Below, in pieces: positions 10,038 through 32,769 of a DNA stretch of 64,000 nucleotides. Location: the NCBI RefSeq assembly GCF_040054535.1, contig NC_090782.1, forward strand, positions 20,553,001-20,617,000, read 5' to 3'. The position numbers were made by a program, and so were the translations under genes. The stretch comes from Antennarius striatus. Lineage: Eukaryota; Chordata; Actinopteri; Lophiiformes; Antennariidae. The notes below the pieces were generated by a model that saw only the letters and a program-made list of their open reading frames with translations, searched no databases and had not been told where the DNA came from. The first letter of the stretch is position 1; each line of letters opens with the position of its first letter.

Positions 10038-13000
10038 TTATGGTTCCAAATAAAGCTTGTCAATCAGGTCCTTGTAATTCTCCAACACCACTGACCTTTT
10101 TAGCTTCATGGTAGGACCTGTTGAAGGATTAAAAACAAAAAAAAGAGGATTATCTCAAGCACCAGCTGCTGCATTGTGTCTTCAACAAATTTTTTAGTGA
10201 CTGCACTGTTATTGTTTAAAAACCAAGAGCCACGCTTATCCCAGTTCCACTTACCCAGTTCTCCTCTAGAGATGGAGAAATCCTCAGCGAGAATCACCCA
10301 CCTCTGAACTTTTTGTGCATTGGAGGTTGCCTTCTCGTTAACTTGTTTGATTCCGACCGTAATGGCATCGTGGATAAATTTATCTCGACCTCCTATGATT
10401 TGTGAGACTCGTGTGGCATTGCTGCCTAACTTCCGACAGATCTCTAGAGCTTCTGGAGTCAGCTCATCCTCAGGGTCGCCTGTCTCTGTGTTTACCTGAG
10501 TCTGGGTAACAAATATATTTAAATTTAATTGACTTTTTGTAATTTCAATGTATTGAGAGGGTTTCGTGGAAAATGTTCACTATTCAAGTATTGTATTGTT
10601 ATCCCTACACTGTGTAACATCCATGCAGAAATGTCCAGCACTCTTTTGACTGTGATTAAGCATAAATCAAACTGAAACGATGTACATGCATATATTTTCT
10701 GAAGCTTTTAATACATCTGTCTTTTGGGTCAAGTCCCCAAACTTACCTTGAGGGTTATCAGCAGTGATAGAAACTTCCTATTGTCTCCAACCAGCATGGC
10801 ATTGCTGATGAGCGGCAGGGCCTCCTTCACTGCATCCTCAATAGGAACAGGAGGAACATTCTCTCCTCCTGCGGTGATGATCATCTCTGAAATCAACAGT
10901 ACAACCACAGTTTCATGAAAAGTTCAATAATGAGGAAAAAAAATGTTCTATCGCTTGATATTTCTGTCGGCGAGTCTCCTAAATCTGGTATTTTTTGCTC
11001 TACACGAAATCTAGAATTCAAACCTTTAATTCTTCCAGTGATGTAAATGAATCCATCATTGTCGTGTTTGCCCAGGTCACCAGAGTGCAGCCATCCCTCT
11101 GCATCCAGAGTCTCCTCGGTCTTTTCGGGCATGTTGAGGTAACCCATGAAGACGTGACGGCCCCATAAACAGATCTCACCAATTCCATTTTCGTCTGGGT
11201 TGTGTAACTTCGTCTTGCACCCAGGAATTTCTTTACCACAACTGTAAGACAAACCAGAAAATTTCAAAATATAAATTAACAATCAAATGTTAATACATAG
11301 CAAATTTGAATTTGTCAAAATAAGGGGAATTTTCTGACACATCAAAATGAGGTAAGTAAAGAAATCACCTGGTGAGCTTGAAGATTCCAGGAAGGGAGAC
11401 GGTGTGAGGGCCGGTGCTCTCGCTCATTCCATAGATTTCATACAGAGGAATATTAAGGCTGAGGAAGAACTCAAGTGTGTCTTTGCTGATGGGAGCGGCG
11501 CTAGTGAAACACAATCTGGAACGCTCGAGACCGAGAGCCTTACGAATCTTTTTGAACACAAGGAATTTGGCTAAGTGAAAGCTGATTGGTTTTCGGCCAG
11601 CTTCTCCGTTCCTGAGGAGAAACACACCCCATAAAAAGCCAATGTGAACATAAAAATTGAACACTGACATATAACCTGACACAAAATGTCATGATCTATT
11701 TTAAAGTCTGTCTGGATGTCTGAATTTGCCGGTACAATGATAATATTTGTATTATTATATAATATATAATAATAGAATATTATCTTCATCCAAATCTCGT
11801 AACATACGTACGGATTCATCCTGGTCAGATTTGCCTCCAGACCAACTCTTTTGGCCCAGGCAGCCACCCTCCTGAGTATCATTGGAGACTGCTCTCCGAC
11901 ATTTCTCATCTTTTCCTGCATCTTCTCCCAGACACGGGGGACGCCCATGAAGGCTGTGGGGTTCACCTCCTTCATGGTGTTTACTAGAGAGCCCTGATAG
12001 AGGAAACACAAACAACATCTGTGGGTTACAGCTCCTTCAAAACCAACAAAAACTATCCAGCATCTTTTCCATGCATCTACTATCGCAAATGTGTTATCAG
12101 GCATGAAATTTCTTCAACGTAAAACAATATACTGCATTGATTAACAATACTGTGACAGATTTCAGTCCTTTTTCGTTGTATGAAAAACCAATGTTCACTG
12201 ATAGTATTTATCTCAAAGCTCCGCAGAAAACAATGACCCATGTAATTTTAGCAGCCCTGGATTTGTATATTTATGACTTAAGAGTTTTCAAATTGATTTA
12301 ACAAATTGATTTAATTGATTTAACACGCTGGGATACACTCCAGCTCCCCGCGACCCGCGACAGCGGATGAAAATGAATGAAAAAGACGCAGTCGATGTGT
12401 CTCACCTTCAGTGCGTCTGGCTGAGCGAAGCACGTCTTCCCTCCGACTTTCATGATGATCCAGATGTCGATCATCTGTGCGGCGATATGGCTGAGTGGCA
12501 GGTAGCTGACCACCACCTCCTGAGCTTGAGGGGGTTCCTTCAGATTCGCGTGGCGGCTGATAGATAGTGCAGTCCAGGTTATCTGAGGAGAAAGAAGAAG
12601 ACTTGTGGTTCATATGATGGTCTGCAGCTGGCTAGGCAAACCCCTGTGACCCAGTAAAGTGAAAGAACCAGATAAGATAAATGAATGAATTAATAATATT
12701 ATAATATAATATATAATAATATAGTATAATGAGCACATCAGTACATTTGTCAATTCCTCAAGTGTAATTTGCTGCCCTGTATCTCAGAAACCTAAGTAGC
12801 CAAACTTATGTCACATCTCTTACGTTATCATGGCTGAGCATGACTCCTTTGGGCTGTCCTGTGGTTCCTGAGGTATAGATGAGCGTGCAGCATTGGTTGG
12901 GCTTCTGACTGGAGATGATAGCATCAAGGGGTTCTTCAGGCTCATCACGTCCGAGCAACAAGAACTCGGCCCACTGCAGAACAAAAAAGAATCAGTGAGA

Positions 13001-16000
13001 AGATGTCGACTGGCTGAAATACATTTTCTCATATTTCTCATGCATATCAAATGCTTACTGTGTATAGATTTGATCTCTTCTCCTTCACTTCGCCTCTGTA
13101 GTAGATTATTGCTTTTAAGTGTGGTAGCTGGTCTTCAACCTGTCAGCAAAAAAAAAAAAAAAGCACAAGAACATAATGGATCGCTTGCAGGTAATGAGAA
13201 AGTGGGTCAGTGTGCGGATTTCTACTAACTCGACTACAGAAGCGGAATTCATCTCACATGTTCTGATCTCACCTGAAGGATCTTGTGCAGCTGTCTCTTG
13301 TTCTCCACCACAATGATGTTGGCTTCGCAGTGTTCTGCTACATACTGGCAGGCTTCAGCAGAGTTGGTGGTATATATCCCCACTGCACACCCACTGCAAC
13401 ACATATGACAAGTCTGATTTAACATCGTCTCTTAAACATGTACTGTTGTGGTTCTCAAACATTTTTTGCGGGCCCCCCTTTTGCTACACAAGAACGTTTT
13501 TGGTGACCCGTTAGGTCTTTTAAGAGTAGAACAGGAGGCAGAAGTTTTAGCTATCTGGCTACTCAAAACTTTTCTCATTGATGAAGCTTACAATTAGGAA
13601 CAACACAGCTTCCGTTGGATAAGCTGCTACAGGCCTAGACTGCTGAGGGTACTTTCTTTGTCTTTCCTGTTAAAGAGAGTTACATTAATCACTTTAGGTT
13701 TTGTTATTTCTTTTCTTTGCTTTTTCTTGCTCATAATACATTGATGCTTCACAAGCTTGCAAGATACTGCCACTATCTATGTGGGGAACAAGTATAGAAG
13801 ACAGGAAATCCAAAGGCCTGAATGTCCTGTCTCCACTTCAGCGACTAGAGTTCAACTTTATACACTGACTACAATTCTATCTGCTACTCTGTCTCTCTCT
13901 CTTTTTCTTGCCCTGTCTCTATCCCCAGTGTATTTCCTTTCCGACCCAACCGGTCAAGAGGGATGACCACCCCCCAGAGTCTGGGTCCTGCCCAGAGCTT
14001 CTTCTTCAATGAGGGAGTTTTCCCCTGCCGCTGTCACTTCTGCTTGCTCTGCAGGGTTCTGCTGGGTTTCCTTCCCTGTTAAAGCGTTTTGAAATGTCTG
14101 CGCTTTACAAATAAAAGTTGATTGAATTAATAGTAAAGACAGCCTGCTGACAATGGCAGTTTGCAAGTTTTTTTCTGACAAAACTCAAGTGACTCGTCTT
14201 TGCGGTCTGGATCATATCTTCACATCTTTGTTAGGGAAGATAATTGCTTTGGAGGCACATCGGACAGTGCTTCATCTTCTGCTGTACATTTACACATCCT
14301 GATCCGAAAGTTGTCCGTGTTATGCTGGCTGTGTCAATTTTTGATTCATTCATTCCCCCATGCCCCCTCAGCAACTGCCCCCTAGGGGGCGCAACCCTTC
14401 ACTTTGGGAATCACTGTTGCACTGCATTTCATTTAGACTCTCCCCTAGAGATATGCTGGAAGGCCTTGTATCAATAGCCTAAGGTCAGCCTATCCCATAA
14501 CCTGTTTACATTTAATATCGAATTAAATGTAGACAAAAAAGACTTACCCCGCCAGGATGGCTCCAATGTTGGCGATGAACCACTCGGGAGAGTTGTAGCC
14601 CAGGATGCAGACACCGTGGAACCGCTGCAAGCCGAGCTGTAGAGCGACAACACCTAAGTTTAAATGTGTGTTCCGAGTTGCACATAACTGGATTTATGTT
14701 ATGTTTAATTTACCGTAAATAATAAGATAAATAGTTTGTCGCTCTATCGCGGAATCCGTTAATCGCGTGTGGTTGTTGAGGAACGAGGACGCACTGTATA
14801 TCATAATCGTAGCTCATAAACGCATACAAGTGTAATTTTTCAGCAGACTGATACAGCGCCCGTATCACTGCAGACGTTGCCAAGATCAATTGGTTTATCT
14901 CTGATTTACTACCTGCTGATCTTCATCACAGCCATTTAATATTTCCTGCAAACCATCCCAAAGACAGAGGTTCCAGTGCGATGAAGCTATCAGGACCACA
15001 TCATCCACAAAAAGGTTACGTGACCCTCAGGCACAATGTAGCACCTAAAATTCAGTCTGCAACAATCAGGAACAGAACCGTTGACAAATGGCCACCCAAG
15101 TGGGAGGTTAATGCTTATCTATTTTAAGCTTAAACAGAAATGTTTTAAGTTTGAATTTAGTCGAGAAAAAGATCTAAACTTACAAATACAACTTGGCAAT
15201 GCATACCGTACATCGCAGAAGCTTCATTTATCAACCAATGATAAATAAAAGCCTTTTTTGAAGTCATAAAACAAATCCGGAAATTGATATTATCGAGTAA
15301 AATGCCGCAAAACGTGATTTTATATTTTTCCTTGTATTTTTTGTGAAAACATACAATCAACGTATAATCAAGAATTTTAGGCGTGGTATACCTGTACTGA
15401 AATTGTTTGATCATTTAATGTATATGACTCTTGTTTAGGTGGATACTAAAAAAAAGTTTAAAACAACTAAATCACCTTCAGGAAGCTCCTGGCAGCCTGG
15501 CGACAGATCAGGTAGTATTCCCTATAGTCCACGTCTGTCCATTTCCTTTCTACTTTAAGACTGAGAGCTGGTTGGTCGCCGTAGCGCTCCAGGGACAACA
15601 TAAACATATCATGAATGGTAAGAGGTTTTTCAGCAGACGTCTCCGAATCCCCAATTCTTAACTCTACTTCTCCATCCTTCAGAGTTGTTAATACAGAAGG
15701 TTGTGCTGCTGCTGGCAATAAGAGGGGAAAGAAAAGAGGGAAACAATAAGCAAATGGTTACCAAAGGACCTCAGAAACATGCAAAGGAAACACATATTGA
15801 TGAACTTCATTGGGATGAAAATACAGTATCATTTCATTTGCAATATGAGTTATGAATAGTAGTAACAGACTTTTGAATGTGAGAAAACATCAGAGATATT
15901 TATTTTGTATTAGTTAACTTTCATTCATTCATCTTCTTAACCGCTGTTTCTGGTTACATGGGTCACAGGTTTGCTGGATCCTATCCAAGTAGACTTACTG

Positions 16001-19000
16001 ACAAGAGGCAGGGGACCCTCAGGGTGCGATGTCAGTGCACCGCTAAGCCACATGAAAGACAAACAACCACTCACCAATTGTTAACTCTGCCTCTGCATCA
16101 CTCAGAGATGTTGAAGGAGAAGGTTTTGGTGTTGCTGGCACTAAGAAGGAAATAGAAAACAGGGAAGATGTTTTAATAAATAATGGTTTACAAATGGTTA
16201 CCAAGGTATTTCAGGGAAACACATATTGATGATCTTCATTACTACAAAAATACAGTATCATGTCATTTCATCTGCAAAATAAGTTATGAATAGTAGTAAC
16301 AGACTTTTTAATGTGAGAAAACATCAGAGATACTTATTTTGTATTAGTTAACTTTCATTCACTCATCTTCTTAACCACTGTTTCTGCTTACATGGGTCAC
16401 AGGTTTGCTGGATCCTATCGTAGTAGACTTACTGACAAGAGGCAGGGGACCCTCAGGGTGCGATGTCAGTGCACCGCTAAGCCACATGAAAGACAAACAA
16501 CCACTCACCAGTTGTTAACTCTGCCTCTGCATCACTCAGAGATGTTGACGGAGAAGGTTGTGTTGCTGGCACTAAGAAGGAAATAGAAAACAGGGGAAAA
16601 AAGAGGGAAAAAATGGAAGATGTTTTAATAAATAATGGTTTATAAATGGTTAACCATTTGTATTTCAGGGAAACACATATTGATGATCTTAAATACGAAA
16701 AAAATACAGTATCATGTCATTTCATCTGCAAAAAAAGTTATGAATAGTAGTAACGGACTTTTGAATGTGAGAAAACACCGGAGATACATGCATTTTGGAT
16801 TAGTTAACCTTCATTCACTCATCCTCTTAACCACTGTTTCTGCTTACATGGGTCACAAGGTAGCTGGATCGTATCCGAGTAGACTTACTGACAAGTGGCA
16901 GGGGACCCTCAGGGTGCGATGTCAGTGCACCGCTATTCCACATGAAAGACAAACAACCACTCACCAATTGTTAACTCTGCCTCTGCATCACTCAGAGATG
17001 TTGACGGAGAAGGTTGTGTTGCTGGCACTAAGAAGGAAATAGAAAACAAGGAAAAAACAGGGAAGATGTTTTAATAAATAATGGTTTACAAATGGTTCCC
17101 AAGGTATTTCAGGGAAACACATATTGGTGATCTTCATTACGACAAAAATACAGAATCATGTCATTTCATCTGCAAAATAAGTTATGAATAGTAGTTACAT
17201 CAGAGATACTTATTTTGTATTAGTTAACTTTCATTCATTCATCTTCTTAACCGGGCGGCACGATGGTTAGTGCTGCCGCCTCACAACATGGCGGACCCGG
17301 GTTCGAGTCCCGCTCTGTGCGGAGTTTGCATGTTCTCCCCGTGTCTGCGTGGGTTCTCTCCGGGTTCTCCGGCTTCCTCCCACCTCCAAAAGCATGCGCG
17401 TCAGGTTGATTGGCCGTTCCAAATTGCCCGTAGGAATGAGTGTGTGTGTGCATGGTTGTGTGTCTTTGTGTGTGGCTCCGCGGTGCACTGGCGTCGTGCC
17501 CGGAGTGTCCCCCGCCTCACGCCCTATCTTGGCGGTGGTAATCTGAAGATGACTTACTGACATCTTCTTAACCGGTGTTTCTGCTTACATGGTGGATCCT
17601 ATCCCAGTAGACTTACTGACAAGAGGCAGTATTGCACCCTCAGGGTGCGATGTCAGTGCACCGCTAAGTCACATGAAAGACAAACAACCACTCACCAATT
17701 GTTAACTCTGCCTCTGCATCACTCAGAGATGTTGAAGGAGAAGGTTTTGGTGTTGCTGGCACTAAGAAGGAAATAGAAAACAGGGAAGATGTTTTAATAA
17801 ATAATGGTTTACAAATGGTTCCCAAGGTATTTCAGGGAAACATATATTGGTGATCTTCATTACAACAAAAATACAGCATCATGTCATTTCATCTGCAAAA
17901 TAAGTTATGAATAGTAGTAACAGACTTTGAATGTGAGAAAACAGGGAAGCATGCATTTTGGATTAGTTAACCTTCATTCATTCATCTTCTTAACTGCTGT
18001 TTCTGCTTATAAGGGTCACAGGGTAGCTGGATCCTGTCCTGATGGACTTATGGACACCAGGCAGGGGACACTCGGGCACCGCTAAAGCACATGAAAGACA
18101 AACAACCACTCACCAATTGTATCACTCAAAGGAGTTGACAAGGTAGGTTGTGATGTTTCTGGTGGCACTAAGAGGGACAAAAAAAAAAAAAAGGAATTTG
18201 TTTTAGTAAACATGGCTACCAAGGGATTTCAGAAACATACAAGGAAACACACATTGATGATCTTCATTAGGACAAAAATACAGTGTCATTTCATTTCATT
18301 TGCAATATAAGTTATGAATAGTAGTAACAGACTTTTGAATGAGAGAAAACACAGGAGATACATATTTTGGATTACAGTAATCCCTCGTTACTTGTGGTTA
18401 ATGCGTTCCAGGATCAACCGCAAAACATGAAATTCTGCAAAATATCGACCGAGGATTTATTTTATTGTTTACTGTATTTTAAACGTTTATGAACCCTCGC
18501 CATACCTATATTAAACCACTTTATATCTGTATTGCCTTTTCCCACACTCTCAGACTTGTAACGCCACCAGTGTTTCTTATGGTGGGCCAGGATGACACAC
18601 ACAATATTCTTTGAATGGTCTTAATTTGGTGTCCAGCCTTAACAAGGAACAAGAACTGACTACGATCTCCTGCTTACACTCTCATTCTCACTCTCATGCC
18701 CCTTTCTTAGTCTTGCAAACACATGCAGAACACACACACGTAGGCAAACTCAGGGCAACACACACACAAAACAACAACACGGGTTATCACAGACTGTTTA
18801 AAAATACTTTTGTATTAAAGTTGCCAGAAGAACAGTGAGTCTCGGAAGGCAGTGCACACACGCTGCTTCTGCTTACACGAGTCAGGGGGTAGCTGGATCA
18901 TATCCTAGCGGACTTGCGGACAAGAGGCAGGGGACACCTCCAGGCGCAATGTCAGTGCACCACTGAGCCACATGAAAGACAAACAACCACTCACCAATCG

Positions 19001-20074
19001 TAAACTCTTCCTCTGCATCACTCAAAGATGTGGACGGGGTAGGATGTGGTGTTGCTGTCAACAAGAAGGAAATAGAAAACAGGAAAAATTCTTTAGTAAA
19101 TAAGCAAATAGTTATCAAGTGATTTCAGACACATTCAAGGAAACACATATTGATGATCTTCATTAGGACAAAAATACAGTGTCATTTCATTTCATTTGCT
19201 ATGAGTTATGAGTAGTAGTAACAGACTTTTGAATGTGAGAAAACACCGGAGATACTGTACACATTTTGTATTAGTTAACTTTCATTCATTCATTCATCTT
19301 AACCGCTGTGCGGCGACAATGCTACCCACTGCACCACCGTGTCGCCCATTACAAATTCAGTAGAATCAATTTATTTATTTGAGGAATGTAGCGCGTTCAT
19401 GGTAAGACCCTCAAAAGTGGCTAATTTAGCTTCATCACTAAATTAGTGATGAAGTTGCAGATAGCTGCCATGCCACCTCCAAGCCTGCTATCAGGTGCTA
19501 TATGAGTGTTAACATGGCTGGGAGGAGAGGCTTCATTAATGCTAACATACTCATTCTTATCTCGTAAGAACTAAAAGGAAGTACATGTAATCTATTACAA
19601 ACATCATAAAGTACAGGGAGTACAATACATTATACAGTGCGCCCTTGTTACTCACGGTTAATGCATTCCAGGAGCCACAAGTGAATAACAAATTACGTGA
19701 TAGAGCGACAAACTATTTATCTTATTATTTACAATAATTTAAACATTTATGAACCCTCCCCATACTGATAGTAAACCACCGTCTCTCTGTATTTCCTTTT
19801 CCCACACTCTTATCGACTGTTTAAAGCACTTTTGTGTCTCACGGAAGTGCGTTGCGTTCCGAGACTCACGGAATGTAGCACACTTCCGTATGCCGTAAGA
19901 CAATAGAATGCTCGACTTCCTGCTAAAAAATCCGTGATGAGGTGAAATTATGCGTGTTGATGCGGGAATGTGCGAGGGATTACTGTATATACAAATGTGT
20001 ACAGACTTACATAGACATATTTCATCTTCAAGCACAGCGATATTTTCCACATGTACACAGCATGGAGTCGTCAT
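10038..20074 (-). CDS. acsbg2: Acsbg2-like acyl-CoA synthetase, copy A (with mini-exon array)
   Basis: Bubblegum-type long/very-long-chain acyl-CoA synthetase (ATP + fatty acid + CoA to acyl-CoA + AMP + PPi). Exons, 5' to 3': 20074-20011, six mini-exons (19054-18995, 18167-18114, 17761-17696, 17027-16965, 16571-16509, 16140-16075), 15711-15476, 14636-14548, 13393-13273, 13139-13059, 12973-12824, 12582-12406, 11993-11812, 11611-11369, 11241-11024, 10886-10747, 10501-10255, 10117-10038. If all are joined: 2400 nt, about 799 aa. Seen: P-loop [50 protein letters not shown] and the C-terminal MKLK lysine region. This is the most diverged copy ([15 protein letters not shown] in the first shared exon) and has a short tail ending LYLEP. 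No frameshift or stop was found. Exon 1 and mini-exon use are inferred. Confidence 0.9.
12336..12372 (+). mobile_element. Short SINE/LINE 3'-tail fragment
   Basis: ACTCCAGCTCCCCGCGACCC followed by a TGAATGAA tail, matching the 3' end of the fish repeat seen complete at 32248-32582. It lies 34 bases from the 5' splice site of the copy A exon 12406-12582. Confidence 0.6.
13446..14421. mobile_element. hAT-like non-autonomous element in a copy A intron
   Basis: The left end reads GTGGTTCTCAAACATT and the right end, reversed, AGTGATTCCCAAAGTG: imperfect terminal repeats resembling the CAGTGGTTCTCAAAC ends of hAT/Charlie-type elements. The roughly 975-bp insert explains why this intron is longer than its counterparts in copies B and C. 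No transposase was seen. A second repeat (13850-14130) is nested inside. Family assignment is by memory of terminal motifs. Confidence 0.5.
13850..14130 (+). mobile_element. Dispersed fish repeat with TTGATTGAATT tail
   Basis: Contains CCCAACCGGTCAAGAGGGAT and CCAGAGTCTGGGTCCTGCCC, and ends GCGCTTTACAAATAAAAGTTGATTGAATT. This resembles the 3' part of a very common teleost retroposon. Nested in the hAT-like insert; no coding potential. Confidence 0.55.
14700..14815 (-). mobile_element. Fragment of the CAGTNN-CCCTCG terminal-repeat element
   Basis: The reverse complement starts TACAGTGCGTCCTCGTT and includes GATAGAGCGACAAACTAT, matching the left end of the full element at 19635-19985. Only one end is present. 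Confidence 0.6.
14840..15115 (-). mobile_element. Degraded LINE fragment
   Basis: Contains a GATACAGCGCCCGTATCACTG-like stretch and CCACATCATCCACAAAAAGG, which resemble the antisense of a common teleost LINE reverse-transcriptase region. Heavily decayed; assigned from remembered family features only. Confidence 0.4.
15476..15711 (-). CDS. acsbg2: Copy A first shared coding exon (parent of the mini-exons)
   Basis: 236 nt, acceptor TTGCCAG and donor GTGATT, in phase with its neighbours. It encodes the N-terminal segment up to AARSFLK. Its first 60 nt ([20 protein letters not shown]) align with every mini-exon, but where those end in ATTG followed by GTGAGTGG this exon reads on as ATTGGGGAT (Ile-Gly-Asp). 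It therefore keeps the ancestral uninterrupted structure, also seen in copy C (KLRMGDSG). Confidence 0.88.
16075..16140 (-). CDS. acsbg2: Mini-exon 1 (66 nt, 22 codons)
   Basis: Acceptor CTTAG|TG, donor GTGAGTGG. Encodes [20 protein letters not shown] plus Ile. A second in-frame acceptor six bases in (GCCAG|CA) would give a 60-nt form. Confidence 0.72.
16509..16571 (-). CDS. acsbg2: Mini-exon 2 (63 nt)
   Basis: Acceptor CTTAG, donor GTGAGTGG. Encodes [20 protein letters not shown]. One codon shorter than mini-exon 1 (an in-frame loss in the CCAAAACCT/CAACCT region). Confidence 0.72.
16965..17027 (-). CDS. acsbg2: Mini-exon 3 (63 nt)
   Basis: As mini-exon 2 but ending in ACAATTG rather than ACAACTG (Ile instead of Thr). 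Intact splice sites and frame. Confidence 0.72.
17253..17545 (+). mobile_element. SINE-like element with tRNA-like head
   Basis: Begins GGGCGGCACGATGGTTAGTG (A-box-like) and has GGGTTCGAGTCCC (a B-box) about 30 bases on, then the fish-typical GGAGTTTGCATGTTCTCCCC body and GTGCACTGGCGTCGTGCCC. It sits between mini-exons 3 and 4 and lengthens that unit. A second copy is at 32248-32582. The tRNA-like head is a promoter relic, not a tRNA gene. Confidence 0.75.
17696..17761 (-). CDS. acsbg2: Mini-exon 4 (66 nt)
   Basis: Identical in length and very nearly identical in sequence to mini-exon 1, including the PKPSP variant. Acceptor CTTAG, donor GTGAGTGG. The similarity to unit 1 rather than to units 2-3 suggests repeated unequal exchange in the array. 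Confidence 0.72.
18114..18167 (-). CDS. acsbg2: Mini-exon 5 (54 nt, most diverged)
   Basis: Encodes [17 protein letters not shown]. It has lost 12 nt near its 3' end (the AEAEL part) but keeps the frame, an acceptor behind a 13-base T tract, and the GTGAGTGG donor. Frame conservation despite divergence argues for selection, or at least use. Confidence 0.7.
18376..18560 (+). mobile_element. CAGTAATCCCTCG-type terminal-repeat element, left part
   Basis: Starts TACAGTAATCCCTCGTTACT and includes GTTAATGCGTTCCAGGA and TTTATGAACCCTCGCCATA, shared with the complete element at 19635-19985. The right end is not clear; the sequence continues in CA-rich material to about 18850. Confidence 0.6.
18995..19054 (-). 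CDS. acsbg2: Mini-exon 6 (60 nt, 5'-most coding unit)
   Basis: Acceptor TTGTTGACAG|CA, because the usual CTTAG is mutated to CTTGT and the inner site must be used. Donor GTGAGTGG. Encodes [20 protein letters not shown]. Remains phase 1-1. Confidence 0.7.
19635..19985. mobile_element. MITE-like element, 351 bp, TA-flanked
   Basis: Left end CAGTGCGCCCTTGTTACTC; right end, reversed, CAGTAATCCCTCGCACATT; TA on both sides. No coding capacity. Its right end lies 20 bases from the donor of the copy A first exon (20011). Related fragments lie at 14700-14815 and 18376-18560. Confidence 0.65.
20011..20074 (-). CDS. acsbg2: Copy A first coding exon (inferred)
   Basis: ATG at 20074-20072, then 21 codons plus one base to a consensus GTAAGT donor (20010-20005), leaving phase 1 as every downstream acceptor needs. 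Encodes [20 protein letters not shown] then Leu. The homologous stretch upstream of copy B (29154-29178) ends at the same donor and in the same phase, which supports it as a real exon. No promoter element was identified. Confidence 0.6.
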
Positions 20075-21055: not shown

Positions 21056-21442
21056 TGAGGTAATTGTGTGAGAACTCACTCTGAGCTGCATCAGTGTCAA
21101 TCAATCCTGCATTATAATAATAACAACAATAATAACAGGCCATATTTTGGGACCATTGAAATTTGCTTTCATAACTAGTATGATATCTTGTTTTCAAATG
21201 AATGCTACCACAATTTTACTCATGAATCACTTGATGATAATCCATTTGAATAATATATTTGCCCTAGCCAATGGAAAGTAAATGGTTGTACACCTTGCTG
21301 GTACAAGGTGCTGGTACATTATAGGGTCAAGGGGTAGCTGGGTCAAGGGGTATCCAGTAGACTTACGAATAAGAGGCAGGGGACACTCCGAGCGCGATGT
21401 CAGTTCGCCACCAAGTCACATGAAAGACAAACAACCACTCAC

Positions 21443-21508
21443 CAATTGTTAACTCTACCTCTGCATCACTCAGAGTTGTTCACGTGGAAGGTTGTGGTGT
21501 TGCTGGCA
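21443..21508 (-). pseudogene. Displaced mini-exon 7 with in-frame stop
   Basis: 66 nt with the same CTTAG acceptor and GTGAGTGG donor as the coding units, but codon 9 in the family frame is TGA (CCT TCC ACG TGA). It lies 1.4 kb upstream of copy A exon 1, outside the inferred transcript. It is embedded in a 540-bp module flanked by the same fish repeat on both sides (21308-21440 and 21720-21835). Confidence 0.75.
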
Positions 21509-21719
21509 CTAAGAGGGAAATAGAAAACAGGGAAAATTCTTTAGTAAACAATAAACAAATGGTTACCAAGGGATTTCAGAAACATGTAAGGAAACACAAA
21601 AATACAGAATCATTTCATTTACAGTAGTTTGCAATATAAGTTATGAGTAGTAGTAACAGACATTTGGATGTGAGAAAACATCAGAAATACCTATTTTGAA
21701 TTAGTTAACTTTCATTCAA

Positions 21720-21845
21720 TCATCTTCTTAACCGCTGTCTCTGCTTACATGGGTCACGGGTTTGCTGGATCCTATCTTCGTAGACTTATGAACAAAAGAC
21801 AAACAACCACTCACGCACACACTTAAATCTACGAACAATTCATTC
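21720..21845 (-). mobile_element. Dispersed fish repeat, copy extending past the donor motif
   Basis: Minus-strand reading gives GTGAGTGGTTGTTTGTCTTT preceded by TAAGTGTGTGC. The repeat therefore normally continues 5' of the GTGAGT motif, and the copies behind the mini-exons are 5'-truncated exactly there. Confidence 0.65.
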
Positions 21846-29178: not shown

Positions 29179-29487
29179 TGCAATACTTTGCACTGTTTCA
29201 CAAAAAGGATGTGTCACTACTGACACTTGTCACTCAAAAAACATACTGACTGTGTATTTGATCAAAGCTATAAAGTTCATAGCACGTACATCAAAGACAT
29301 GAAAGGCCACCTTTTATCATCAGTAAGATAAAAGGTGAGTTTTATCAGTTTCCTTTGTCTTATTCTTCTTTGATCTTTGATCATATTTTCTTGTGCTATG
29401 GTCTTTGCTATGGTTGTGCGAACTAACAAAGCGACAAACGCAATTAGAAGTAGATAACAATCAAGAATACTTACACCCTGTTGTTGA

Positions 29488-30748
29488 TAGACTTATTTTT
29501 CCCCCCCTTGCATGGAAACAAGGTTTTCACAATACTGGACCTGAGTGCCTACCACCACTGGATTAGGGAGAGGGATGAGTGGAAGATGGCATTCAATTCA
29601 CCACTTGGCCATTTTGAGTTCCTTGTGACGCGTTTTGGTTTACAAAATGCTCCTGCAGTTTTTCAGTGCTTCATGTAGGACGCACTTAGACATTTAATAG
29701 GGCAGTTTGTTTTTGTTTATTTGGATGAAGCAATTTTCTCATCTGATCTCAACATTCATCAACAGCACATCCATTTGGTTCTCCAATGACTTTTGGAGAA
29801 CAGCGTATTCGTCAAGGTGTTGAAGAGAGAGTTCCAGTTAACTAAAGTGTTTTTTGGTTTTGTCACTGTGCACAGACAGGTAATCATAGATACGGCTGAG
29901 GCGAAAATTGTTTCTGGTCTGCCTACACCCACCTCAACCCAAAAGTTTTTGCAGCGCTTTTTGGGCTTTGCAAATTTCTATAGGCGGTTCATTAAGAACT
30001 ATTCCTGCCTAGCAGCCCCTCTCACTACTCTGACTCCTACCACCAAAACCTTCCACTGCACAGCAGAAGCTGACATAGCCTTCCAGGAACTTAAGCATTG
30101 AGTTACCACAGCTCCCATATTTACCCAGGTTGACCCTGAGCTTCAGTTCATTGTGAAGGTGGATGCATCTGAGACTGGGTTCACAGCTATTCTGTCTCAG
30201 TGTTCCCTCATAGACCATAAACTGCATCTTTGTACTTTTTATTCCCACAAGCCCTCCTCCCCTGAACAGAATTGTAATGTTGGGAACCGGGAGCGTCTGG
30301 CTGTTAAGCTGGCCCTCAAGAAATAGTGTCACTAGTTGGAGGGAGTCAAACTACCATTCATCGTGCGGACAGACCACTGAAAATCGCCTACAAGCAAGCC
30401 AGGGGGACCTTGTTTTTTGGGAAGCTTAATTTCACATTGACTGACTTCCAGAAACACAAAACCTGACGCCCTGTTCCGTCAGTTTACGGCCAACCCTCCT
30501 TCTCAGTCTGACCCCATGCTGCCTCCCTCCTGCTTTGTCACACTGGGAACCTGGGACAGAGAATCTCATGTCTGCCAGGCCCAGCTGACCCAGGCTGATC
30601 CAGGCAAGGCCTCCCCTTACTCTCTTTTTGTGGCTGATTTAGTCCACTCATAAGTCCTCCAATGGGTCCATTGAAAGAGGCTGACCTGCTATCCCGAGGT
30701 GGGTTGTACCTTGGCCTTCCTTCATCGGTGCTTCTGGTGGATGACTGG
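29488..30748 (+). mobile_element. Degraded Ty3/gypsy retrotransposon fragment (RT and RNase H)
   Basis: Order of remnants: [11 protein letters not shown], then [16 protein letters not shown] (RT), FVYLDEAIFSS where the family has a YLDD-type catalytic motif, then FLGFANFYRRFIKNY (connection), then VKVDASETGFTAILSQ and NRERLAVKLALKK (RNase H). Stops and shifts break the frame and no LTRs were seen. Inactive. The A-B spacer at about 20640-20660 retains the uninterrupted flanks (AAAGACATCAGGGAATTTGT), so the insertion followed the duplication. Confidence 0.85.
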
Positions 30749-32031: not shown

Positions 32032-32247
32032 ACATTTACTCAATGTAACTGAGTAATGGTCTATCTAGTTTTGTGTATCAGGCCCACCTGTATCTTTGGA
32101 CACAAATTTTGACAAGCAATGAAACATTTTTTAAAGATTCCTGTTAATATCCCAATGAAGAAGTTAATAAGTTAATGACACCATATATATGGAATTCTTT
32201 CAATACGACTAACTTCATAATTAAAAATCATGGCAGACAAAATGCTG

Positions 32248-32582
32248 GACGGCACGGTGGCGCAGTGGTTAGCGCTGTCGCCTCACAACACAGCGGTTCC
32301 GTGTTCGAGTCCCGCTCTGTGTGGAGTTTGCATGCTCTGCCGTGTCTGCGTGGGTTCTCTCCGGGTTCTCTGGCCTCCCACCTCCAAAAGCATGCGCTTC
32401 GGGTTGATTGGCCGTAGGAGTGTGTGTGCGTGGTAGTCTGTCTTTGTGTGTGGCTCCGCGGTGCACTGGCGTCGTGCCCGGAGTGTCCCCCGCCTCACGC
32501 CCTATGCCAGCTGAGATAGGCTCCAGCTCCCCGTGACCCGCTGCAACGGATAAAGCGGCAGAAAATGAGTGAATGAATGAAT
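32248..32582 (+). mobile_element. SINE-like element with tRNA-like head and TGAA tail
   Basis: GGACGGCACGGTGGCGCAGTG head, CGTGTTCGAGTCCC B-box-like motif, GGAGTTTGCATGCTCTGCCG body, TAGGCTCCAGCTCCCCGTGA 3' part and (TGAA)n tail. In copy B the flanks are joined directly (CATGGCAGACAAAAT near 22190), an empty site. Confidence 0.8.
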
Positions 32583-32769
32583 TTCAGAAAAAATAACTTG
32601 TAACTTTGCGCAAACTTTCTACTGATGTTTTCGTAATAGCCTTTTTTGTGTTGTAGTTATGCCCAGTATCACTGCAAAAAAAACAAACAACTACTTTATA
32701 TTCATACATGTCAATAAATAGATCATAAACACGAAAAACACAGAGGTCCGTCGATCAGCTTAACCGATT

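Follow-up and report, generated by a model that had tools for sequence, protein, structure and literature searches.

How does an acyl-CoA synthetase gene come to carry six very small exons in its first intron, and are these exons used? We explored this question in a window of 64,000 nucleotides of the Antennarius striatus genome (NC_090782.1, positions 20,553,001 to 20,617,000); positions below are those of the window unless another contig is named. Three acsbg2-like genes lie there in tandem on the minus strand, namely A (20.07-10.04 kb), B (29.2-23.0 kb) and C (39.7-34.2 kb). The label acsbg2-like is provisional and comes from a comparison with one protein only, human ACSBG2. The parts of gene A that matter here are as follows.

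20011..20074, minus strand: exon 1, with an ATG at 20074 and a donor in phase 1.
20010-15712, minus strand: intron 1, 4.3 kb, which houses the mini-exons U1-U6.
15476..15711, minus strand: exon 2, the parent of the mini-exons by sequence comparison.
10038..14636, minus strand: exons 3-13, none of them damaged, by exon reading.

Gene A has 13 exons and is stop-free, encoding 675 aa when exon 1 is spliced straight to exon 2. This short product matched the Pfam families AMP-binding (8e-74, beginning at residue 62) and AMP-binding_C_3 (5.9e-12), and it is full length, intact and AMP-binding, as the ACSBG (bubblegum) acyl-CoA synthetase fold demands. The dN/dS ratio of gene A was 0.42 against B and 0.37 against C (549 codons, exons 3-12). 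Because the exons are intact, the AMP-binding match is present and dN/dS is low, gene A is a constrained gene and a pseudogene reading is excluded. The codon aligned with the ATG start of gene B and of a paralog on another contig (D, below) is GTG in gene A, and an in-frame ATG lies 39 nt upstream of it, at 20074. Thus, translation of gene A into the array requires the ATG at 20074. Elsewhere in the cluster, inspection by eye suggested that gene C probably has two further N-terminal exons upstream, at about 41180-40578, and that the opposite strand ahead of gene B (about 29480-30400) holds a stretch resembling part of a retroelement polymerase.

The mini-exons, numbered in order of transcription, are listed here.

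18995..19054, minus strand: U1, 60 nt; the usual acceptor is lost and an AG 6 nt further on serves.
18114..18167, minus strand: U2, 54 nt, with changes of +3 and -15.
17696..17761, minus strand: U3, 66 nt, AG/GT, phase 1-1.
16965..17027, minus strand: U4, 63 nt, AG/GT, phase 1-1.
16509..16571, minus strand: U5, 63 nt, AG/GT, phase 1-1.
16075..16140, minus strand: U6, 66 nt, identical in sequence to U3.

A preliminary description of this DNA had claimed six symmetric, frame-neutral exons of 60, 54, 66, 63, 63 and 66 nt in the first intron of gene A, copied in tandem from the 5' part of exon 2. Our alignments agreed with it on the lengths, on the parentage, and on the AG before and the GT after each unit, with phase 1-1 and an open reading in the frame of exons 1 and 2. 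Its claim that any combination of units could be spliced safely also held, since all 64 of 64 inclusion patterns gave an uninterrupted reading frame to the natural stop, from 675 aa without units to 799 aa with all six; the frame therefore enforces no exclusivity of the kind found in a mutually exclusive exon cluster. The 54-nt unit, U2, is indeed in frame with a net change of -12, but its supposed single loss of 12 nt is best read as a gain of 3 and a loss of 15. The count of six is right for the intron of gene A, but a seventh unit, U0, exists outside the gene.

21443..21508, minus strand: U0, with an in-frame TGA, upstream of exon 1; found by genome search and translation.
21309..21844, minus strand: a 536-nt insertion bearing U0, composed of partial SINE, X, unit and partial SINE.

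The insertion that bears U0 has no counterpart in the homologous spacer between genes B and C. Each unit combines an intron piece from the 3' part (X) with the 5' part of exon 2 and with repeat sequence. A 135-nt intron piece occurs in seven copies, one of which belongs to exon 2, at a spacing of 407-896 nt; in addition, a 167-nt piece is repeated five times and the donor region six times. An assembly artefact is an unlikely cause of this pattern, because the units differ from one another and have different neighbours. Intron 1 of gene A also holds a 178-nt repeat (75% alike, at 18373-18550 and 19633-19810), which is probably a further dispersed element because similar stretches occur on contig C3.

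The repeat sequence at the 3' side of the units was then the key to their origin. Directly after each of the seven units come the 17 bases GTGAGTGGTTGTTTGTC, which are also present at 21814, where no exon adjoins them. They belong to a SINE family with the following relevant copies.

32240..32595, plus strand: reference SINE copy, a stretch of 356 nt including a few flanking bases.
15919..16074, minus strand: 3' half of the SINE after U6; position +1 of the donor is position 187 of the 356-nt stretch.
19280..19348, minus strand: remnant of a SINE ahead of U1, its head placed by alignment (19348-19301) and its tail by eye.
17264..17527, plus strand: SINE-family copy in reversed orientation in the intron between U3 and U4, by alignment.

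We aligned the SINE with the right flanks of six units (U0, U1, U2, U4, U5 and U6). The alignment began at the first intron base in five of the six (U0, U1, U4, U5 and U6), and the local match of U2 started later because of a deletion. After U4, U5 and U6 the match extended to the SINE tail; after U1 and U0 it was shorter and started at the same position. Our genome searches spanned 548 Mb in 42 contigs. When U6 with its flanks was the query, 40 of 129 candidates were scored, and all 33 scored matches outside the array started at query position 110 or later, where 110 is the donor. For the 20-mer beginning at the donor we counted 697 genomic matches with at most one mismatch, 8 of them at this locus (reversed control, 1). 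A strict SINE head motif lay within 260 nt in two of ten genomic 20-mer places inspected, and the copies without it nearby may be diverged or belong to related subfamilies. The full repeat copy as query returned 5716 first-look candidates, the best 40 of which were scored, and ARAGORN found a tRNA-like structure at the SINE head in 4 of 11 loci. Because of the many genomic candidates and the tRNA-like head, we call the repeat a tRNA-type SINE. Judged from these alignments, the units take their donor from inside a dispersed tRNA-type SINE, an origin that the preliminary description had overlooked. The units thus have a splice site within SINE sequence, as in SINE-assisted exon birth.

The array would have arisen by a duplication that fused exon 2 to this repeat. 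A SINE would have inserted into intron 1 of gene A, and a tandem duplication would have joined a break in exon 2 (after ...AATTGG) to a break inside the SINE (TGAGTGG...). With one break in the exon and the other in the intronic SINE, such a duplication would create a usable 5' splice site, made of SINE sequence, at the junction itself, TTG/GTGAGTGG (TTG/GTGAGT). Having kept its own acceptor, the 5' part of exon 2 in the copy would immediately have become a symmetric phase 1-1 mini-exon, and later duplications would have given six intronic units and the stray upstream unit U0. We regard this origin as highly probable; its anatomy can be read from the junctions themselves, and the order of events is our reconstruction.

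Several observations bear on this reconstruction. In all five places tested (before U0, U3, U5, U6 and exon 2), a SINE tail stands ahead of the duplicated intron. Two paralogs on contig C24, D (4545 kb) and E (4536 kb), have a single exon 2 each, and no mini-exon array was found at either in the 26 kb of that contig searched. In intron 1 of D, X is present and no SINE precedes it; about 280 nt in gene A, including the SINE remnant at 19348-19280, part sequences that are adjacent in D. Exon 2 of D and E reads AATTGGTGATTC. An ancestral GGT codon, which D and E have, would give the junction a microhomology of four bases (GTGA), and an ancestral GGG, which A has, one of a single base. As side observations, paralog E (C24:4532-4536 kb) looks degenerate, with no match to gene A at about residues 325-443, and the end of its exon 2 reads differently from that of D. 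We also counted genomic copies of the exon-SINE junction word (at most two mismatches) and found seven, six of them at this locus; the reversed control gave seven as well, so this count carries no weight and was discarded.

D was the farthest from all units and from exon 2 of gene A (24-30%, X plus exon) and was set as the outgroup of the unit tree, in which node support was weak (47-70) except for U3-U6 (100). U3-U6 were 2-9% apart and formed one recent lineage, the nearest to exon 2, and U0, U1 and U2 differed by 14-21% from each other and from the remaining units. Because U3-U6 form one recent lineage, the six open frames amount to about three independent lineages.

Whether the units could be recognised as exons was explored with a position weight matrix for which genes A, B and C supplied 35 donors and 36 acceptors, the thresholds being set at the weakest unit. 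In the 4.3-kb intron 1 of gene A the scan gave 13 acceptor-donor pairs, of which six were in frame and open, and these six were U1-U6; no other in-frame open exon was found in this intron. The numbers of in-frame open pairs were 0 of 8 in a 12-kb control and 0 of 3 in the spacer between A and B, and intron 1 of B contained no acceptor-donor pair. Since the thresholds came from the units, U1-U6 pass the scan by construction; however, the absence of other pairs in frame is not fixed in this way. The mini-exon acceptors scored 8.1-14.2 bits, against 2.0 bits for exon 2's own. Their donors, at 5.3-5.7, were mediocre, equalling or exceeding 7 of the 35 real donors. A second SINE-internal donor, CA/GTAAGT, follows U3-U6 (17617, 16889, 16433 and 15999) and outscores the first; exons extended to it would, in order of length, be 139, 139, 142 and 145 nt, all 1 mod 3 and all four with in-frame stops.

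We then analyzed the divergence of the units. The indels between their exon parts were of 3, 3 and 15 nt, and 5 of 18 intron indels were multiples of 3. A neutral simulation (intron tree, midpoint-rooted, with intron-derived indels and the right flank of U3 trimmed) kept the splice sites, frame and open reading of all six units in 1.6% of runs (P = 0.016). For three lineages (U1, U2 and U6) the corresponding value was 7.5% (P = 0.075), and U0 as a single unit was kept intact in 26% of runs. For the exons of U1 and U2, divergence from the other units was 0.99-1.62 times that of the introns. Among U3-U6, 2 of 63 exon columns had changed against 48 of 296 intron columns (Fisher, 0.0044). We rejected this low exon divergence as a sign of constraint, because the nearest intron bins were about equally low: 3 of the nearest 60 upstream intron bases had changed, and much of the intron excess lay at the alignment ends. 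There was no clear difference between exon and intron change over seven units (Fisher, 0.08) or six (0.26). The dN/dS ratios were 0.28-0.75 among the in-gene units (13 of 15 pairs; 2 undefined) and 0.92-1.92 between U0 and the in-gene units, all on very few changes. Between A and D, dN/dS was 1.17 in the exon 2 segment homologous to the units, 0.72 in the rest of exon 2 and 0.39 in five other exons. We therefore also rejected dN/dS as evidence of purifying selection on the units, the counts being tiny and the parental segment itself having a ratio of 1.17. This N-terminal segment seems able to vary freely. Such freedom would account for tolerance of the array, and it means that dN/dS is lost as a test. 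A record of splicing in retrocopies of exon 2 was not found either; all six genomic exon 2 matches lay in loci interrupted by introns.

These results have to be weighed against three other explanations. Instead of a duplication that fused exon and SINE, a SINE might have entered an already duplicated exon and truncated it. The final junction would be identical, but the join lies in the interior of the SINE (position 187 of the 356-nt stretch), away from its end, and a SINE tail before the duplicated intron in five of five places is what a tandem duplication predicts; we consider an insertion of this kind very improbable. The second SINE donor raises another explanation, in which its use would yield frame-shifting poison exons, decay of the mRNA and thereby a tuning of gene A expression. 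It can be said for this that the extended pairs have the highest scan score, 22.3 where the units have 13.8-19.8, and that all four extended exons shift the frame and bear stops. However, only 35 donors underlie the matrix that ranks them. The scan shows no extended pair for U2, and for U1 just one of 247 nt that uses a different donor. Poison exons would also not need frame-preserving indels, and an array kept for this purpose appears improbable.

The units could also be neutral intronic duplicates that the spliceosome skips, with open frames inherited from exon 2 and an array whose decay has been forestalled by its young age or by homogenisation. This would fit the single recent lineage of U3-U6, the exons of U1 and U2, whose rate of change is similar to that of introns or higher, and the neutral probability for three lineages, only 0.075. 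Moreover, substitutions alone seldom create a stop (P(no stop) = 0.80 after 9 changes). However, six intact units would be kept with a probability of 0.016 and the exon indels are all in frame. A stop does occur in U0, the sole unit outside the gene, but this is a single case, and a lone neutral unit would stay intact with a probability of only 0.26. We think it unlikely, though with an appreciable chance, that the units are such duplicates. On sequence evidence, we lean towards the reading that at least some units are spliced in frame as cassettes of 18-22 residues each. In favour of such use stand the intactness and low dN/dS of gene A, the 64 open patterns, the lack of any further in-frame exon in the scan, acceptors stronger than that of exon 2, the in-frame exon indels and the neutral value of 0.016; the mediocre donors, the better second donor, the three-lineage value of 0.075 and the unclear contrast between exon and intron change weigh against it. 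An origin by SINE fusion together with in-frame cassette use is then the best explanation of the whole, and one that we hold to be somewhat probable.

If the cassettes are used, all six would add up to 124 residues ahead of the AMP-binding domain, and, measured on the short form, about 40 residues would separate the predicted insert from the AMP-binding match. As the preliminary description had proposed, the insert predicted from the sequence is rich in Pro, Ser and Thr, with 52% P+S+T against 16% in the short protein. It contains nine SP/TP and ten S/T-x-x-D/E motifs, and the tail would presumably be disordered and phosphorylatable. That this tail has a role, for example in phosphorylation or localisation, is a speculation that we hold to be rather doubtful. 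Similarly doubtful is the wider picture in which the SINE interior acts as a portable donor, so that one duplication landing on it makes a frame-neutral cassette of an exon fragment in one step, and the cassette has been amplified and kept in frame by selection, providing a Pro/Ser/Thr tail of adjustable length that can be phosphorylated and perhaps varies in copy number among individuals.

The locus can be compared with several known systems. Tandem exon duplication occurs in about 10% of animal genes according to a 2002 study cited in PMC9013439. In the sense given there, homologous exons adjoin within one gene, and U1-U6 are likewise homologous tandem exons with splice sites in one gene; in contrast, they copy only the 5' part of an exon and take their donor from a SINE. 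For Drosophila hydra, PMC9013439 describes repeated initial exons, seven of nine flanked by DINE-1. This resembles our array in its recurrent tandem exon duplication and in the transposon 3' of the units. However, the hydra exons described there are initial ones, some with alternative transcription starts, whereas U1-U6 are internal units in a coding frame, and here, unlike DINE-1, the repeat itself forms the 5' splice site. Schistosome MEG genes, as described in PMC4350168, share with U1-U6 very small symmetrical exons that permit splice variants. They are platyhelminth genes made mostly of micro-exons and carrying a signal peptide, whereas here the array lies within one vertebrate-type enzyme gene, whose exons 2-13 of 80-247 nt do not fit a coding region made mostly of small symmetrical exons. 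In primate ACSBG2, PMC2671141 reports a duplicated exon 7 that, like the U array, is an intronic exon copy with an open frame, and that has no Ka/Ks sign of constraint. That copy is single, in opposite orientation, derived from another exon and attributed to break repair.

Among the open-access matches listed, no ACSBG mini-exon array or SINE-donor duplication of this kind was present. The locus offers a base-by-base view of a partial exon copy gaining an instant donor from a common repeat, with the array, array-free paralogs and the source repeat all within one genome. The 697 near-exact copies of the donor word would allow the same route to be sought genome-wide, and if the units are used, they would form a still-varying repeat tail on an acyl-CoA synthetase. 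Set beside these systems, the array is a real and well-explained case that belongs to no new kind of system; it is an unusual form of tandem exon duplication.
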